From Deltaproteobacteria bacterium (GTDB lineage: Bacteria; Myxococcota_A; UBA9042; DTJE01), in the NCBI GenBank assembly GCA_029555025.1, contig JAKPTZ010000026.1, positions 1 to 32,660 of the forward strand: 32,660 nucleotides of DNA. Direction: 5' to 3'. The notes under the pieces were generated by a model that did no database searches, was not told where the DNA came from, and saw nothing but the letters and a program-made list of their open reading frames with translations. A program made the position numbers and the translations under genes. Of this stretch, positions 1,421 to 12,032 are shown piece by piece; the stretch's first letter is position 1; every line of letters begins with the position of its first letter.

Positions 1421-2266
1421 TCATTTCTTCAACAATGCAAGCAGTGTCCGGACATTTGTGGAAACCTCGGCGCAAACAACTTCATCTGCTTTTCCAGTCA
1501 AAAACAGGGCCGCACGAACCGGCCCTGGCGCATCGTGACGGCAGAAGTCCCTTTCCAGAATCGATATGGCTTTCCTGGCGTCATGATGATCCAGGATTCG
1601 GTGAAGATGACTGGCAACGTCGTTAATTCCGGCGGCAAAATTCCTTAACACGTAGTTCAAATCGTATGCGTCCTTGTTTTCGCCACGTCCCTCAAATGCA
1701 AGCGCCTTCATCACGATGAATCCGCCGGGGCCGCATGCCCACAGATTTCGGGATGCGGCTTCATGCTGGATGGTGTGGCACCGAATATTGACACTCATGC
1801 GGTCATGAAAAGCGCATTCGAGACCGGAAGCGACCACCGCCGCAAAATCGCTTTCGATGTTTTTCAACCGACCAGGCACGTCACTCGAACAAGACGGCGA
1901 AATCAGGAAGTCCACACTGATTTCGGGAGTGCCGGATACAACCCACCGATGATTTGTTTGATGTCCCCGTTCATTTCTATCCGGACGGAAGCCGGCATCT
2001 CTAAGCCGGGCAGAGATCTCCCGATACCTTCCGGATTCCAGTACGGCCAGTTTCAGGCCCAGATCCAGATCCATTGTCCCTGCGTGAGGCTCAACGCCCG
2101 GCATTGAGTTGCTTTGATTAATAATCAGGGTCGGTACCAGGCCACCGACCACAATAATGTCGTCCATCATGTCGCCGAGCCGCGTCGCAATAAACAGCAG
2201 CGCGGATTTCACACGTGCGGTATGAGCGCAGTCGTATTGGATTGCCGTGGCGGGCTTACCGGTCAT
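1421..2266 (-). CDS. AbiEii-like nucleotidyltransferase (candidate toxin of a TA pair)
   Basis: The protein looks like the nucleotidyltransferase-fold AbiEii/AbiGii (DUF1814-like) family, whose members act as toxins of type IV TA systems; some modify tRNA or other RNA with nucleotides. Visible signatures are 'IIVVGGLVPTL' (Gly-Gly at 41-42), 'HAGTMDLDLGL' giving the D-x-D pair at about 66 and 68, and a later 'ISVDFLI' that can supply the third carboxylate. The frame runs to 2311, but I place the start at the ATG at 2266. That ATG lies inside the last codons of the upstream gene (ATGACCGGTAA, 11-base overlap, with AAGG just before it), the typical arrangement of translationally coupled TA genes. 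Length is 281 residues, normal for the family. The partner upstream is a wHTH protein of AbiEi type. That this pair is toxic and neutralised is inferred from family and context only. Confidence 0.7.
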   Translation of the reverse strand: MTGKPATAIQYDCAHTARVKSALLFIATRLGDMMDDIIVVGGLVPTLIINQSNSMPGVEPHAGTMDLDLGLKLAVLESGRYREISARLRDAGFRPDRNERGHQTNHRWVVSGTPEISVDFLISPSCSSDVPGRLKNIESDFAAVVASGLECAFHDRMSVNIRCHTIQHEAASRNLWACGPGGFIVMKALAFEGRGENKDAYDLNYVLRNFAAGINDVASHLHRILDHHDARKAISILERDFCRHDAPGPVRAALFLTGKADEVVCAEVSTNVRTLLALLKK

Positions 2267-3320
2267 CCTTATTCCAGTCCAGGATTTGCCGTCGCAGCAT
2301 TGCGGCAGCATCGGCCGATCTTTCGTGGTGTCCCTTCAGATCGACGAAGACCTGTGCCGGATGGGCGCAAATGACGCCATCCTTCGGCCGCGTCCACTGA
2401 AAGACACCATCGTCATCGGGTACAACCAACCACAGGTTGGCTCCCCTTGATTCGGAAATAAAGCCGATCCGTTCCAGGAATTCGGAAGGAATTTCTTCAC
2501 GCACAAAAATTGTGACTGTCCGGAAGGCGGCGAAGCCGGTCATCAGCCATGCGGCACCAAGACCGGTCGCGGCGTATTCCAGACCTTCGCCAGTCAGGCT
2601 CGATGCAACTTGATGAAGCAGCGCTTCGCCCGACCGGGCCGGCAGGCTTCCCCTGATACAATGGTGACGGTCGAAGTTATATGAGTCGCGCCATGCATCA
2701 AGCAACAAACCACGGTCATTCACGCGAACCGTTCGGTCCTTCTGCCTGGATACAAGCTCTTCGGCAACAAGGCGGGACAACAGGCGGCTGACAAAACCGC
2801 GGTCAAGACCGGTAAGTTCGGAAATCCTGGCCTGACTGAATTGTTCCAATGGATTTGCCAACAGCATCCGGACGATTCTTGAGCTTCTGGGGGCAAACAA
2901 GTTCGTTGGACGCCCGGATGAAACGAAAGCATCGCGCTTGCCTTCAATCACAACCTGCAGACCGGGAGCCACGATAAAGGCGTTGCCACTTAGATCGAAC
3001 CAACCCACGCCGCGTTCGTGACAGATTTTTCGTCCGGCTTCCCCCATGTAAGGAACCGCCACCAGGGGGACAATCCCGTCAAACCGGGCGGCCATGGCAC
3101 GAACCTTTTCGACCGCGGAAAGCACTGGGGCTGAAGTTGCCGACTTGCGAAACTCGACAACAAACCTGGATCCAAATTCGAATGTCAAATCCGCCCCTTG
3201 AACCCAGCCGGCCTGGCCGGATTCCAATACTCTGGCCTTCTGATTAAAAGGCGCAAAAATCCGGTTCAAGACCGCCGGCATTGCCGCCACAAGACGCCTG
3301 TGTTCGTTTGATTGCATCAT
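2256..3320 (-). CDS. AbiEi-like winged-helix protein with N-terminal restriction-endonuclease-like domain (candidate antitoxin)
   Basis: This is a two-part regulator. The N-terminal half has 'ADLTFEF' and 'VVEFRKSATSAPVL', then 'VPLVAVPYMGEAG' and 'GVGWFDLSGNAFI', a pattern typical of a PD-(D/E)xK-like domain fused to DNA-binding regions in AbiEi-related antitoxins. A winged helix follows ('QARISELTGLDRGFVSRLLSRL', then 'LVSRQKDRTVRVNDRG'). The C-terminal third (about 150 residues) matches the conserved tail of such proteins and ends with 'AQVFVDLKG', close to the AbiEi C-terminal motif. The frame extends upstream to 3446, but that extension has no ribosome binding site and would cross the putative promoter, so I start at the ATG at 3320; 3341 and 3317 are alternatives. 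It overlaps the nucleotidyltransferase gene by 11 bases. By analogy it should bind the module's own promoter and antagonise the partner. The expected autoregulation is not shown by any repeat I could identify with confidence. Confidence 0.68.
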   Translation of the reverse strand: MMQSNEHRRLVAAMPAVLNRIFAPFNQKARVLESGQAGWVQGADLTFEFGSRFVVEFRKSATSAPVLSAVEKVRAMAARFDGIVPLVAVPYMGEAGRKICHERGVGWFDLSGNAFIVAPGLQVVIEGKRDAFVSSGRPTNLFAPRSSRIVRMLLANPLEQFSQARISELTGLDRGFVSRLLSRLVAEELVSRQKDRTVRVNDRGLLLDAWRDSYNFDRHHCIRGSLPARSGEALLHQVASSLTGEGLEYAATGLGAAWLMTGFAAFRTVTIFVREEIPSEFLERIGFISESRGANLWLVVPDDDGVFQWTRPKDGVICAHPAQVFVDLKGHHERSADAAAMLRRQILDWNKDDR

Positions 3321-3327
3321 TGATAAA

Positions 3328-3356
3328 CAAATACCCTTCATTGCTGAATCTGTCAA
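3328..3356 (-). promoter_or_regulatory. Putative promoter of the AbiEi/AbiEii-like pair
   Basis: On the minus strand TTGACA (3351-3356, perfect -35) is followed after exactly 17 bases by TATTTG (3328-3333). The ATG at 3320 would then lie almost at the transcription start, implying a very short or absent leader. The same TTGAC[A/T]-N17-TATTTG arrangement occurs before the gene ending at 553. Confidence 0.4.
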
Positions 3357-3489
3357 TGTAGCCAATTTATGCAAATCACCCTGACAAATCAACTGCGACG
3401 TGAATTTCGCCAACGCTTGAACTTTCACTCTGACTTCACAAAACACGTATCATCCGGAATCGTGACGACAGCTTTTCCGGGGAGGCGCG

Positions 3490-6312
3490 ATGAGACTCCT
3501 GAACCCGTCAGCATTATTGGTTTCGGTGATGCTGGCCGCGGCGGCACTTGCCGGGTGCGGGGGCGGGCCGGTGGCGTCCGATGTGCCGGGCGACGTGGGC
3601 CAGACGGGGGACGACCACACGGTGCCATCGTTTGCAAGCCTGGCGGACTTCCTGGCGTACGCCGGGGAAGCGACGCCGGCCCAGGTGAAGTTCGTCATCC
3701 GGGACTTCCAGGGCCCGGCGGTGGTCCACTTCGAGGAACCCGGCTTTTATGCGATGCACGACGAATGGTCATGGTTTTCGCTTCTTAACGGGATCGAGAT
3801 CCCGGGATACGACTTCGCCCCGATAAATGGAATGTCGTTTCCGACCGTGGGCGCCATTTTTGACTGGGCCAGGGGCCGAAGTCCGCTTCCGCTTGACCTG
3901 GTGTTCGTGGCCGAGGGCACCCGCCTTTATTCGCCGAAATTTTATGACCGCGCGTTCAACCGTACCAGCAGCCAGGGAACGCTTGCGCCGCGATTTTTCG
4001 GATGCGGATCGGTCCTGTATTTCCCGCCCGATGACAGACGTCCGATTCCCGTTGAGACGTGGGGTTTCGAGCTTGAATACGGCGACGTGCCGACCGAAAC
4101 CGACGTCGAAAGGTTCTTTGAATCCATCGGCGAGGCGCTTCCCGAAGGCGTTGCCGGCGAGATCATCTGGATTGTAAGGTCGGAAACGCAGAAAAAGGTG
4201 GCCCAGACGATTGACGCCGGGGGCGGGCCGCTTGCCGGCAGATGGGCAACCTGGGACATGTTGCAGGTGCCCGGCGAGTCCCAGACTTACAACCCGGGCA
4301 TCTCCGCCGGCTTCGTGAAGATTTTTGAACCGGGCGAAGTGCCCCTGGTCGATGCGGCAAGGACCGTGGCGGTGCTGCGCGAAATCCCGGACGACCTTCC
4401 CCCGGTCGCCGCGATCGTCACGAACGTGCCCCAGACCCCGTTGTCGCACATCGGCATCCTGGCAAAGGCGCGCGGCACCCCGAACCTGTACGTGGCGGGA
4501 ATCGCCGACGACCCGCGGTTCGTGACGTGGGCGTCGTACAAGCGGCCCATCATCGTCAAGGCGACTGCCGACGGGCACGAATTCCGGGAAATGAGCAACG
4601 CGGAATGGTCCCAGTACATGTCGCTTCAGGCACCGCGCCAGGCCGACATCCAGCCGGTCGATGTGTCGGGATTCCCGGACACCTTCGATCCGGGCGCCGC
4701 GACGCCGACGGAGATGGAGGGCCTGATTCCGATGATCGGCGGCAAGACGGCCGGGTTCATCATGTTGAACTCGATCGGTGAACTGGACAAACCGGACGCG
4801 CCGATTGGGATAACCGTTCGTGGTTACCGGGAATTCATCGACACACTGGATCCGCCGCTTGACCAGATACTGGCCCACTCCGCGATGACCGACTCCAGGG
4901 TCGTGCTTGCGGTGACCGAAGGGCCGAACGCCTACCTGGCCGCCAATGGTGGCAGCGATGCGGCGCAGAAGTGGCTTGACGCGTTCCGGACGGCTTACCT
5001 GGGAACGGTCATCGGCCGGGCCGTCGAGGCTGGCGGCATCAGGCAGATGGTCATGACGGCCCCGATGGACGCGGGCTTCGTCGCGCGAATCACGTCCGCG
5101 CTGGAAGAAAGATTCAACTTCCTGGACGACGCCCAAGGACTGCGGTTTCGGTCGTCGTCGTCGGCCGAGGACGTTGAGGGCTTCAACGGCGCGGGCCTTT
5201 ATGAATCCCACACCGGATACCTGCACCCGGAACTGCAATCGCCGAAAAAAAGGGACAAGACGGTTGAAGCCGCCCTGCGCCGAGTCTGGGCGTCATACTG
5301 GCTTAACAACGCATTCCAGGAACGGGCCCTGGCCGGGATCGACCATCTGGCCGCGAACATGGGGGTGCTGGTGCACCCGGTGTTCGACGACGACCGCGAG
5401 GCGGCAAACGGCGTCTTGACGCTTGAGCTTGTGCGACGGGCAGGTGGCGACGTCGTGACCCTGACCGCGAACATGCAGGACGGCGCCCTGTCGGTGACGA
5501 ATCCCCCGCCCGACTCGAATGCGCTGCCCGAAGTCGATGTCGTTACCAGGACCGGCGCGGATGACCCGGTGATTTCGCGCGTCCGGGCCTCGACCGAAGT
5601 GGCCCCGGGAACCCTGCTGCTTTCCGACACCGAGCTGACGTCGCTGCTTGACTCGTTCGTGAAGATGGCGTCTGACTGGCTTGACCTGCGAAACAAGGAT
5701 CTCCTGTCGGCAAGGAAGCGTTCCACGTTGACTGTTGATGCGGAAATCAAACGGATGTCGCCGGGATGGCCGTCGCTGAAGGACGGCACAGTGAACCCGG
5801 CCAGGCTGGTGCTGAAGCAGGCTCGAACCGTCGAAAGGCCGGTGCTGGCCGGTGACGCAATCAGGAAGCTGCCTGTGCCGGACGACCTGCTGTCGTACGC
5901 GATCCTGGCCAGGCAGCGGACTTGCCAGTGCACGGCCTTCCGCGTGGATGTATTTGAATTCACGACGGATCCGGCACATCCCTGGCCGTTTGACTACTCA
6001 AAGACGCCGTTCGTTTCGCACGCGGCCCTGCGATTTACGACGACGATTCCGGACTTTGATTTCAACCCCGGCGACCTGCGGATGCTGACCCACCTTCACG
6101 CCACGTTCACGTTCGATGACGACCGCCAGTGGCGCATGACCGTGACGCCAATTGACACGCAGGCGGCCGGATTCGCGTCGTTGGAACTTGACCAGGCGGG
6201 CGAATGGACGATGACCGGTGGCGGCGGACAGTCGGCCGACGGTGCCGACCTTGCCTGCACTGCGACAACGATTCTTACTTCACCGCTGGCGTTCCTGGAT
6301 TCGCTGATGTAG
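3490..6312 (+). CDS. Lipoprotein with phospho-His swivel motif and PPDK-type ATP-grasp domain in permuted order
   Basis: The 940-residue protein begins with an SPII signal: hydrophobic segment, lipobox LAGC with Cys23, then Gly residues, so it should be a membrane-anchored lipoprotein outside the cytoplasm. At about 308-337 is 'VPQTPLSHIGILAKARGTP', matching the PEP-utilising swivelling domain with its phosphoryl-carrying His (His320). Residues ~415-780 match the pyruvate-phosphate-dikinase/PEP-synthase ATP-grasp domain: 'IGGKTAGF' (Lys419), 'LRFRSSSSAEDVEGFNGAG' (Arg554), 'VDAEIK' (Glu752) and 'LKQARTV' (Gln777, Arg779). These are the positions that bind ATP and metal in the family, and all are present. 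The usual order is ATP-grasp first; here the His domain comes first, and no PEP/pyruvate TIM barrel is visible. The ~300 N-terminal and ~160 C-terminal residues are unassigned. The ATG has GGGGAGG just upstream. Substrate unknown; phosphorylation of an envelope polymer is speculation. Confidence 0.85.
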   Translation: MRLLNPSALLVSVMLAAAALAGCGGGPVASDVPGDVGQTGDDHTVPSFASLADFLAYAGEATPAQVKFVIRDFQGPAVVHFEEPGFYAMHDEWSWFSLLNGIEIPGYDFAPINGMSFPTVGAIFDWARGRSPLPLDLVFVAEGTRLYSPKFYDRAFNRTSSQGTLAPRFFGCGSVLYFPPDDRRPIPVETWGFELEYGDVPTETDVERFFESIGEALPEGVAGEIIWIVRSETQKKVAQTIDAGGGPLAGRWATWDMLQVPGESQTYNPGISAGFVKIFEPGEVPLVDAARTVAVLREIPDDLPPVAAIVTNVPQTPLSHIGILAKARGTPNLYVAGIADDPRFVTWASYKRPIIVKATADGHEFREMSNAEWSQYMSLQAPRQADIQPVDVSGFPDTFDPGAATPTEMEGLIPMIGGKTAGFIMLNSIGELDKPDAPIGITVRGYREFIDTLDPPLDQILAHSAMTDSRVVLAVTEGPNAYLAANGGSDAAQKWLDAFRTAYLGTVIGRAVEAGGIRQMVMTAPMDAGFVARITSALEERFNFLDDAQGLRFRSSSSAEDVEGFNGAGLYESHTGYLHPELQSPKKRDKTVEAALRRVWASYWLNNAFQERALAGIDHLAANMGVLVHPVFDDDREAANGVLTLELVRRAGGDVVTLTANMQDGALSVTNPPPDSNALPEVDVVTRTGADDPVISRVRASTEVAPGTLLLSDTELTSLLDSFVKMASDWLDLRNKDLLSARKRSTLTVDAEIKRMSPGWPSLKDGTVNPARLVLKQARTVERPVLAGDAIRKLPVPDDLLSYAILARQRTCQCTAFRVDVFEFTTDPAHPWPFDYSKTPFVSHAALRFTTTIPDFDFNPGDLRMLTHLHATFTFDDDRQWRMTVTPIDTQAAGFASLELDQAGEWTMTGGGGQSADGADLACTATTILTSPLAFLDSLM

Positions 6313-6405: not shown

Positions 6406-7262
6406 TCACTCGTCGGAAGTTTCCTTCAATTGCTTTGCGGATCTGTCGGTCGGCAGAAAACTTTCGCCACTCACCACGCTTCTGCCAGTCTTCTGCTCCA
6501 ATTCCCGGCGGGCCCGCCTGGCAATTCCGCCACCCTTCCTGCCAGCGCTGGCGTTTTCCACCATGCCGGTGGCCTGTACGCTTTCGGCAATCTGCCGCGT
6601 AGAAAGTTCCGCAAGCGCCGTGAAGATAAGTTCCGCCTCGGTCATATGGTCGCGCAAGTTCTGTACATCCAATCCTTTGATCTTCTTATGTTCCTTGACT
6701 GAAACCCCCGCCATTCCTGATGGATGATGTTCGTCAATATGGCATATTCGTCAGCGCCACTGACGTCATGGCTTTTCCAATAATCCGTCAGCTTGTTCCT
6801 GGTTTCCTGGCCCATCATCCGCTGCTGGATCCATTTTTCGCTTCGGCCATGCTGGCGCCAGTAATCACGGGCGCGATCCAGCGACCGCGCCGGGTCGCCC
6901 ATGTCCTGAATTCGCTCGTAACCAACCCTTGCAAGCCAAAGCTTAATCGGTTCAGCTTTGGGACTGGGAACGGACTGAACTATTCGCAAAAGCACTTCCG
7001 GATCGGCGACATCCGTCAGATAGGATTTTCCATCGCTGGCCGTCAACTTCAGTCGGTTACATTTTGTAACCGACTCGCTACCTTCCTTCTTGAGCCTGTT
7101 TTTCAACACCTTCCAGTAGTTACGCGCGGCCTGATAGTCCGGCTGATGGATCAGCGCGGCTACAATGTCAACGACAGAAAAGAACCAGGTCTCGGAATCA
7201 GCGTCGTACACCCGACGAATCTTGAAGTCCTCGAAGACCGCCAGAACCTGTTCCTTACTCAT
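6406..7262 (-). pseudogene. BRO-N / DinD-like protein, split by a one-base frameshift
   Basis: The start is the ATG at 7262 (MSKEQVLAVFEDF) with GGAGGG about 7 bases upstream. The first part (residues 1 to about 185) is a BRO-N domain of the phage-antirepressor type ('WFFSVVDIVAAL', 'YLTDVADPEVLLRIVQSVP', 'KLWLARVGYERIQDM'). It is followed by a region typical of longer BRO-N proteins ('WIQQRMMGQETRNKLTDYWK', 'YAILTNIIHQEW'). After HQEW the frame goes astray and stops at 6642. The missing C-terminal part continues in another frame from 6714 ('AGVSVKEHKKIKGLDVQNL', 'FTALAELSTRQIAESVQATG', 'GESFLP') to the stop at 6406; it resembles the C-terminus of DinD. Adding one base within CCCCCGCCA (6705-6713, plus strand) would rejoin both halves into about 285 residues. 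The cause may be a mutation, an assembly error in the G-run, or slippage. Function in related proteins is poorly known; DinD interferes with RecA filaments in E. coli. Confidence 0.85.
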
Positions 7263-7458
7263 CGTCCTGCCCTCCAATTACGCTTGCCCGGCTATGGCCA
7301 GAACACAGGGATATGAAAAACTAGCACCATCGACAGTGAGGCGCCACACCAATCCTCGCCGAACAAATATTCGGGGAAATACGGCGAAGGCTATCCCGGG
7401 AAGTGCAACGGCATTGACCGTTCATGATACGTTGACTGGAACCGCAGAATCCGGGGAA

Positions 7459-9340: not shown

Positions 9341-9379
9341 TTGACTACAGTCAAATAGACGAGCAGACTGACGTATAGT
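9341..9379 (+). promoter_or_regulatory. Putative promoter and TTGACT/AGTCAA inverted repeat before the propeller lipoprotein gene
   Basis: TATAGT (9374-9379) is a good -10 box 26 bases before the start codon. The hexamer 17 bases upstream of it (TCAAAT, 9351-9356) is a poor -35. The perfect inverted repeat TTGACT-AC-AGTCAA (9341-9354) overlaps that position, as would fit an activator or repressor site. No matching site elsewhere in the window was found, so the regulator is unknown. Confidence 0.35.
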
Positions 9380-9404
9380 GGCTTTTACAAAAAGGGGGGG
9401 ATCT

Positions 9405-12032
9405 ATGAACAGCATGCATCGGACAATGCTCACCATGGCCGCCGCAATCGTCTTCGGGTGGGGGCTCGAAGGCTGCGGCACTGACGAAAACTGCAACTGT
9501 CCGGACGGGAACGCCGCCTGCGACATCGTCGAGAACCAGGACACCAACCTGCAGGATCTTGCGCCCGACAACGGCGAAGATTCGTACCCGGAAGACATGG
9601 AAACGCCCGATGAAGCGGTCGTGCCCGACTCGGACGCCGGACTGACGGACGTTTCGCTGGGCGGAACCGCCACCATCAGGGGGCGGGTGACCTTCACCAA
9701 CATGACCGACCATGGTGGAATCATAATCAGGCTTTCAGACGACATGAATCCGGCCTGGACGGGGGCGTCGACAGTCACCACGACAGGCGGAGACTACGAG
9801 TTCACTACCGTGCCTGAGGGAAAGTACCGAATCAAAGCGACCTATGAAGGCTTCACTGTCGAAAAATCCAGGACAGCGCTGGACGTCGAGGTGGCGGACG
9901 GAGCTGTGGTCGTTATCCCGGACATGACATTAACTGCAACCGGGATAATCAGGGGCCGGGCCGTTTTCGGGGAATCCGCGACCGGACCGGGCGGAAACGA
10001 TGCCGGAATCATGGTTTATCTGCCCGGCAGGGAACACATTTCTGTTACCAGGGCCGACGGCAGTTACGAATTTGCCGGCCTGCTGCCAGGAAAATACAGG
10101 GTCTGCGCGGCCTTGACGAACTACGCGGGAAGCTGCCTGGATTGGGTTGCAGTCACCGGCCTGAAGGTATCTGACCCTTCCGTAATCACGATCTGGCCCG
10201 AGTTCAGTCTGGAGGTTCCATGGAACAGGATCAGCGGTCGGGCGACGATGGTCGGCCAGGAAGACAATGCCGGCATATCGGTTACCGCGATCGAGTCGGG
10301 AATGGTTCGCGGCACCTCGACGACCGACACCGAAGGAAACTGGAATATGGAGGATCTTATTGCCGGCATGTACACATTTGTGTATAGCGCGCCGGACGGA
10401 AGCGGCTTCGAACAGGGCGCCTGGTTCGATGGATACGAAATCTTTTATGGCGTGACTGAAATGATCCCGCCGCAGTACCTCAGCCGCGGACGTGCGGTGG
10501 CAGACCTTCCCGCAAACGACATAATCATGCCGATATTGTCACCCGACAATCGTTATCTGGTCGGCATCACCGCCTTCGGCGTCCTGAAATCACTTGATCT
10601 TCAAGATTCCGGGCTGTGGCGGCCGCTGGCAGCCAACGCGGGGCGACTGCAGGTTTCCCCCGATTCCACGTTCGTGGCGTTCGGAGACCGGGACAATCGC
10701 AACATGCTTTATTCCGTGCCCATCGACGGCAGCGGCGACGCACGGTTGCTTACGACGGTCATGACCGACAGCTACAGCCAGAACTTCATGGTCACTCCGG
10801 ATTCTTCCCGGGTCGTCTTTAACGAAAAAGGCGTGACGCCCACGAATTCGATGGTCACGATCCATTCGGCCGACCCGGTTTCAGGGTCGACCTGGACACT
10901 GTGCCAGTCCGACTCGTGGTCCAGCCTCCACATGACTCCGGACGGAAGGACCATCGTCTGTCACTACAGCAAGGGTTCGACCGTGACGATCGCAAGCATC
11001 GCGGACGGAACCGTCCTGTACACACAGACCGACGCAAGGGGCTTCAGCGCGTTACCGGGCGGCACCTTCGTGGTGACGGTGGATACCCTGGGCGGCATGA
11101 AGCTGGTTGACCTGGCCGACGGCACGGCGACCGATCTGGACGGAACGGCGACTGGAAGCGTCATCGCTTCAGACACGACAGTGTTCTTCAACACCGAGGG
11201 ATCGAAGATCATGGCCACCCCGATCAGCGGTGGACCGGCGACGGAACTTGCCGAAGGCACGATGAGCTTCCTGGCGCTGACACCAGACAAAACCAGACTG
11301 GCAGGATTCAAAAACAACCCAACCCTTGATAACTCCAACGCAATCGATCTGTACTCCCTTGAAACGACGGGCGGTGAACTGACCCTGATTGCCGAAGGGA
11401 TCAGCGGACTGTATTCCAACTACCCGTACCCGGTGTTCAGCGTGACGCCGATCCGGACCCAGAATATGGGATGGAGGATCGCGGACGACTCGACATCGAT
11501 CTACGTGCTGCCAAGGTGCGATTCATACAGTCTGGAAGAATGCGACATGCTCCGGATCATGCTCGATGGTTCGGGAACCGAGGTCCTGATGTCGATCACA
11601 TCCTTTGGAATGGGCGGACGTGAAGATCCCTGGACTGTCTGGGAAGTCAACGACGCCAGGGGCTTCGCGATGGGAACCATAATTGTCGACCAGGGCACGC
11701 TTGCCAAATCGCTGATCATCCACCACATTGCCGACGGGTCGAACCATACCATCGACCACGCGATGGCCGGCGGGATCTCGGCCCCGGATCGAAGCTCTTT
11801 CATCTCGTGGTTTGACGACCCATACGTCCTGACCTGGTATGACCCGGCGACTCTTGAAAGGCGGGCGCTGACGCCCTACAGGCCCGAAGGCACCACAAAT
11901 GTCAACGGACCGATCGATTTCCACTTCTCTGACGATTCCACGAAAATCAATTACAACGCACTGTTCGGGCGCAGCATGACCGGCTATCTGCCGGGCGCGC
12001 GCCAACGACATTACATCGTGGATCTGGACTGA
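9405..12032 (+). CDS. Large lipoprotein: carboxypeptidase-regulatory-like domains plus beta-propeller-like region
   Basis: The ATG at 9405 has a run of seven G just upstream, and gives 875 residues. The N-terminus is an SPII signal with lipobox LEGC (Cys24), followed by a Cys-rich stretch (C24, C30, C32, C39) and an acidic linker to about residue 85. Three carboxypeptidase-regulatory-like/CnaB-type beta domains follow at about 88-175, 179-268 and 275-345; each has the 'G.Y.f..vp.GkYri.a' pattern ('DGSYEFAGLLPGKYRVCA' is clearest). The rest, about 370-870, is made of short repeated beta units with 'SPDNRYLVGI', 'VSPDSTFVAFGD', 'VTPDSSRVVFNE', 'MTPDGRTIVC' and 'LTPDKTRLAGF', the signature of TolB/WD40-like propellers. 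It should be a surface or periplasmic binding protein. Ligand unknown; no enzymatic motif was seen. Confidence 0.82.
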   Translation: MNSMHRTMLTMAAAIVFGWGLEGCGTDENCNCPDGNAACDIVENQDTNLQDLAPDNGEDSYPEDMETPDEAVVPDSDAGLTDVSLGGTATIRGRVTFTNMTDHGGIIIRLSDDMNPAWTGASTVTTTGGDYEFTTVPEGKYRIKATYEGFTVEKSRTALDVEVADGAVVVIPDMTLTATGIIRGRAVFGESATGPGGNDAGIMVYLPGREHISVTRADGSYEFAGLLPGKYRVCAALTNYAGSCLDWVAVTGLKVSDPSVITIWPEFSLEVPWNRISGRATMVGQEDNAGISVTAIESGMVRGTSTTDTEGNWNMEDLIAGMYTFVYSAPDGSGFEQGAWFDGYEIFYGVTEMIPPQYLSRGRAVADLPANDIIMPILSPDNRYLVGITAFGVLKSLDLQDSGLWRPLAANAGRLQVSPDSTFVAFGDRDNRNMLYSVPIDGSGDARLLTTVMTDSYSQNFMVTPDSSRVVFNEKGVTPTNSMVTIHSADPVSGSTWTLCQSDSWSSLHMTPDGRTIVCHYSKGSTVTIASIADGTVLYTQTDARGFSALPGGTFVVTVDTLGGMKLVDLADGTATDLDGTATGSVIASDTTVFFNTEGSKIMATPISGGPATELAEGTMSFLALTPDKTRLAGFKNNPTLDNSNAIDLYSLETTGGELTLIAEGISGLYSNYPYPVFSVTPIRTQNMGWRIADDSTSIYVLPRCDSYSLEECDMLRIMLDGSGTEVLMSITSFGMGGREDPWTVWEVNDARGFAMGTIIVDQGTLAKSLIIHHIADGSNHTIDHAMAGGISAPDRSSFISWFDDPYVLTWYDPATLERRALTPYRPEGTTNVNGPIDFHFSDDSTKINYNALFGRSMTGYLPGARQRHYIVDLD

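Follow-up and report, generated by a model that had tools for sequence, protein, structure and literature searches.

A predicted exported, dikinase-like lipoprotein and its Myxococcota-wide family

Within the window, the 32,660-nucleotide stretch of a Deltaproteobacteria bacterium genome analysed here (GCA_029555025.1, contig JAKPTZ010000026.1), one gene encodes a protein, P0001, in which the motifs of an ATP-dependent dikinase follow an apparent lipoprotein signal. Little ATP is normally present outside the cell, and known dikinases act in the cytosol or in plastids. The locus raises the question of what such a protein may do on the outer side of the membrane. The preliminary description of the gene placed a lipobox, a His motif and then a PPDK/PEP-synthase ATP-grasp domain in this order, and sequence, Pfam and profile alignment bear this out (Table 1); its residue numbers (Cys23, His320, Lys419, Arg554, Glu752 and Gln777/Arg779) are exact in the translation. 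The start codon is supported by ggggagg directly 5' of the ATG, at the spacing of a ribosome site. The N-terminus reads MRLLNPSALLVSVMLAAAALAGC, a signal peptide that ends in the lipobox Cys (C23 in LAGC), the sequence mark of bacterial lipoproteins. H320 lies in QTPLSHIGILAKARGTPN, K419 in IGGKTAG, R554 in LRFRSSSSAEDVEGF, and Q777 and R779 in LKQAR, with E752 upstream of the latter pair.

Table 1. Features of the P0001 gene, in window coordinates, with the evidence for each
Feature	Position	Strand	Evidence
Exported dikinase-like lipoprotein P0001, 940 aa, ATG start	3490..6312	+	ORF call, Pfam, orthologue alignment
Signal peptide with lipobox L-A-G-C, predicted lipidated Cys23	3490..3558	+	sequence, orthologue/paralogue conservation
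N-terminal domain, residues ~46-255, proposed acceptor-substrate domain	3625..4254	+	conservation; role inferred
Phosphohistidine (swivel) domain, ~256-385, H320 in TxVPQTPLSH	4255..4644	+	alignment to PpsA catalytic His
PPDK_N-type ATP-grasp, ~400-784: GGK419, R554-SSxxED, D750xE752, KQ777xR779	4687..5841	+	Pfam, profile alignment
C-terminal subfamily domain, ~791-940, conserved C812 and C923	5860..6309	+	orthologue alignment; disulphide likely

The sole Pfam match in P0001 is PPDK_N (PF01326) at residues 414-642 (E 1.9e-11, 44.3 bits against a cut-off of 27), and weak NCBIfam matches to PEP synthase and rifamycin phosphotransferase cover part of the same stretch. Domains were assigned by profile-profile alignment (hhalign) against 14 PEP synthases, namely E. 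coli PpsA and Myxococcota relatives. For the ATP-grasp region the alignment spans PpsA 13-339 end to end (E 3.9e-28, probability 99.8), with K419, R554, Q777 and R779 falling on the corresponding PEP-synthase motifs. Since the Pfam PEP-utilizers model gives no match in P0001, the His motif is assigned from alignment: its region matches PpsA 365-438, and H320 falls on the PpsA catalytic His. This match scores 31.3, against a best of 21.5 among 30 column-shuffled controls, with a modest pairwise E-value of 0.0016, and a sub-threshold PEP-utilizers match at the same motif of the paralogue L067 agrees with it. A swivel His domain in the family is thus supported rather than proven. Characterised dikinases carry a T/SxxGGxxxH signature ahead of the catalytic His (PMC12167813), in place of which the whole P0001 family has TxVPQTPLSH, where the GG is not kept. 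A PDB sequence search with P0001 or the orthologue profile matched only the PEP synthases 8a8e and 9dae, and AlphaFold2 models built from only three sequences were too poor to use, with a mean pLDDT of 40.7 for full-length P0001 and 33.9 for residues 251-796.

The domain order had been described as permuted relative to PPDK, PEP synthase and rifampin phosphotransferase (RPH). H320 does precede K419 in all relatives, whereas PpsA has the ATP-grasp first and then the His; yet this is not a lone permutation, as the order is common to the whole family and to a Streptomyces relative. Searches with P0001 gave matches in 132 of 284 Myxococcota genomes, about 30 of which extend over nearly the full length with 32-62% identity, and the paralogue L065 as query matched in 144 of 237 genomes, where the weak matches may include cytosolic PPDK_N proteins. 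The source genome encodes seven proteins with PPDK_N frames. Four have the P0001 architecture (P0001, L065 of 813 aa, L066 of 650 aa, and L067 on contig C80), and of the other three one is an ordinary PPDK, one a receiver-type PPDK_N protein and one a long rhodanese-domain protein with hydrophobic stretches. By its sequence relationships, P0001 is a member of a large Myxococcota-wide family with a non-exported relative, and not a single permuted oddity. Further arrangements occur: L050 (13387-18548, minus strand), from another Myxococcota genome, holds two P0001-family PPDK_N genes in tandem on one strand; L087 (1767-4820, minus strand) has receiver-like domains ahead of a PPDK_N ATP-grasp; and L088 (1937-6001, minus strand; G000:C76:82500-88500), about 2 kb from L065, is a long protein in which hydrophobic stretches and a rhodanese domain are followed first by a PEP-utilizers His domain (SGGRLSHAA) and then by a PPDK_N ATP-grasp, a second and separate His-first arrangement in the source genome.

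Outside Myxococcota, the distribution of the family is known only from plasmid records. Plasmid-borne Streptomyces genes (L143, 3875-5881; L144, 3752-5764) encode proteins of 668-670 aa with the order N-domain, His, ATP-grasp and no signal peptide. The Streptomyces proteins WP_142270066 and WP_331760287, uncharacterised and named 'PEP/pyruvate-binding domain-containing protein', share this order with P0001 and carry the invariants of its N-domain, but have neither its signal peptide nor its C-terminal domain. The orthologue profile aligns with one Streptomyces protein over residues 26-580 (hhalign, 99.4%, E 2.5e-21), and a tree of the ATP-grasp region, rooted by midpoint only, splits 47 exported-type Myxococcota proteins from the Streptomyces proteins and PEP synthases with support of 100/99. 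The same architecture thus also exists without an export signal, and it is the Myxococcota branch that carries one. In both Streptomyces strains the gene for the PEP/pyruvate-binding protein lies between those for an ATP-grasp protein and an MFS transporter (L143 2505-7332; L144 2391-7071), which looks like an uncharacterised biosynthetic cluster.

Export was proposed in the preliminary description from a single lipobox, and it is the recurrence of this motif in orthologues and paralogues that upholds the proposal at the sequence level. A lipobox Cys stands at the expected place in about 25 of the 27 full-length orthologues; the two exceptions are L027, which has a signal-peptidase-I-like ASA-Q instead, and L037, which is ambiguous. 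The sister subfamily has a lipobox in 18 of 22 readable N-termini as scored by script, and two more are lipobox-like by eye (L116, LCSC; L133, STGC), so that overall about nine in ten readable N-termini of the family bear one. The four family members of the source genome read LAGC (P0001), WAGC (L065), AISC (L066) and LSGC (L067). The last was read on contig C59, the end of which shares sequence with the beginning of the C80 frame. Relatives without a lipobox that keep the catalytic residues, which had been named as evidence against the proposal, do occur in the form of the Streptomyces L143/L144 proteins, and L027 looks like a signal-peptidase-I substrate; the lipobox therefore does not define the whole family, but export still appears nearly universal within Myxococcota. 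The cysteines lend export independent support, as only three Cys columns are strongly conserved among the orthologues: the lipobox, C812 (27/27) and C923 (26/27). The latter two likely form a disulphide pair, which would fit a location outside the cytoplasm. P0001 is accordingly regarded as an exported, predicted lipid-anchored protein, as the conserved motif supports.

The catalytic residues H320, K419, R554, E752, Q777 and R779 are invariant in 30 of 30 aligned relatives, P0001 included, which argues against a chance set. A joint alignment of 50 proteins, drawn from both subfamilies and including further paralogues and two Streptomyces relatives, keeps T316, P317, H320, K419, R554, S555, S556, E560, D561, A568, G569 and Y571 in every row, and E752, Q777 and R779 in each of the 48 rows that extend that far. 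The earlier alternative of a structural protein is disfavoured by this invariance. In RPH, K22A abolishes activity, and R117A abolishes rifampin resistance and the formation of phospho-rifampin (PMC4844700); the equivalents in P0001 are K419 and R554, both invariant in the family.

The profile of residues ~46-255 gave no credible Pfam or PDB match. H90 and D199 are nonetheless present in 49 of 49 sequences, K67 in 48, and Y152 and R168 in 47, with the Streptomyces relatives included, and within the source genome the domain is confined to P0001-family proteins. It is, on this sequence basis, a conserved domain of the family that the Pfam models used do not describe. In other dikinases a third domain serves for acceptor binding and varies with the acceptor (PMC4844700), and by analogy the N-domain is likely the acceptor domain of the P0001 family.

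Compared with known dikinases, P0001 shares the ATP-grasp residues and the swivel His with PEP synthase (EC 2.7.9.2) and PPDK (EC 2.7.9.1), which are cytosolic, have the ATP-grasp first and end in a PEP/pyruvate-binding domain. P0001 lacks that domain, as neither Pfam nor hhalign of its C-terminal region found one. Its combination of ATP-grasp, swivel His and an unrelated acceptor domain is that of RPH and the two-component dikinases HpeHI, CreHI and PpsAB, none of which is known to be exported. These differ from P0001 in their acceptor domain and GGxxxH motif, and RPH also in having the ATP-grasp first and the His last. The plant enzymes GWD and PWD, which are plastidial and carry starch-binding CBM domains, carry an LSHVxVxAR-like His motif and a His domain that precedes the C-terminal nucleotide domain. 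They resemble P0001 in this His-first order; no Pfam match to a starch-binding CBM was found in P0001 or its relatives. Superfamily members with other acceptor domains are established by HpeHI, CreHI and PpsAB (PMC12167813). The search of open-licence literature found no characterised exported dikinase, in line with the preliminary description, which knew of no characterised example.

The reading preferred here, at a probability of roughly 0.55, is that P0001 is an exported, membrane-anchored phosphotransferase of the dikinase type using extracytoplasmic ATP. Once exported and lipidated at Cys23, the protein would bind Mg-ATP in its ATP-grasp domain and transfer the beta-phosphate to His320, with release of AMP and Pi. 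The His domain would then swing to the N-domain and phosphorylate the acceptor held there, which may be a small molecule, a glycan or another compound of the envelope or environment. The ATP could come from outside the cytoplasm, for example from lysed neighbours or prey. Catalysis, phosphate path, N-domain role, acceptor and ATP source are all inferred. Low extracellular ATP need not forbid such activity, because the Km of RPH for ATP is only 8.4 uM (PMC4844700). Counting against a dikinase are the absence of GG from the swivel motif, an N-domain with no relative of known function, and the lack of a conserved neighbour hinting at a substrate.

The main rival, though an unlikely one, is a non-catalytic exported protein in which the dikinase fold has been put to a new use, binding ATP, AMP or another phospho-compound outside the cell for signalling or adhesion. 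The scarcity of ATP, the departure of the swivel motif from the classical GG signature, the anchoring of the protein and the lamin-tail domain borne by one relative would all suit a binding or sensing role, but pure binding has no use for a phosphohistidine, and H320 and the complete K/R/E/Q/R set are kept without exception, phylum-wide, in the 50 proteins. Free ATP would also be dispensable if the protein used another phosphoryl donor, such as a phosphate ester or pyrophosphate, or ran in reverse. HpeH alone transfers phosphate from 4-phosphoacetophenone to another phenol, so that the His half-reaction is possible without ATP (PMC12167813); given that the residues placing the ATP phosphates in the ATP-grasp are invariant, this reading is quite improbable.

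More improbable still is a ligase, in which phosphate transfer would activate one substrate for condensation, as in the prodigiosin ligases PigC and RedH. The sister proteins match the NCBIfam PigC and RedH models over the ATP-grasp, far below the cut-off, and the Streptomyces relative lies between ATP-grasp protein and MFS transporter genes, as in a biosynthetic cluster, but PEP-synthase and RPH models score equal or higher, and the matches reflect only the common ATP-grasp. Outer-membrane exchange of lipoproteins is known in myxobacteria, and a cargo delivered in this way or by vesicles to another cell, where ATP is present, would account for both the lipidation and the kept ATP chemistry. 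This has a very slight chance of being correct, as no immunity gene or other neighbour is conserved beside the family, and the C-terminal domain shows conservation rather than polymorphism. The least probable reading takes P0001 as cytosolic and the lipobox as chance or a mis-called start. A cytosolic Streptomyces relative with the same order does exist, but dozens of divergent orthologues and paralogues have the lipobox too, and the ggggagg ahead of the ATG fits the start as called.

The surroundings of the gene were also inspected. No conserved gene neighbourhood was found across 20 family loci beyond the sister genome, the phage records searched held no match to the family, and a defence-system library gave none for P0001. 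Upstream in the window, an overlapping pair on the minus strand (1421-3446) encodes a nucleotidyltransferase-like protein with no Pfam match and an HTH protein with a MarR_2 match. The pair is reminiscent of an AbiE-type toxin-antitoxin system; its PADLOC matches are weak and of candidate-system rank only. Directly downstream, a BRO-N domain protein (6642-7277, minus strand), possibly derived from a mobile element, is not among the genes that the window shares with the sister-genome locus L045. Further on, an 884-aa protein with a carboxypeptidase-regulatory-like (SdrD_B/SpaA-like) domain (9378-12032, plus strand) is likely a surface protein. Among the dikinase-like proteins, the relative L039 (1321-4494, minus strand) and the paralogue L079 (4605-7700, minus strand) have lamin-tail domains between the lipobox and the dikinase-like core.

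In a broader and more tentative reading, somewhat short of even odds, the family would represent secreted ATP-dependent dikinases, found across the phylum, that draw on extracellular ATP to phosphorylate molecules of the envelope or the environment, by way of a new family of acceptor domains. A widespread branch of exported lipoproteins that keep all the catalytic residues poses the question of where the phosphate comes from and which target is modified. The family defines an N-terminal domain that none of the Pfam models used describes, and it offers a single conserved set of proteins on which bacterial ATP chemistry beyond the cytoplasm can be put to the test.
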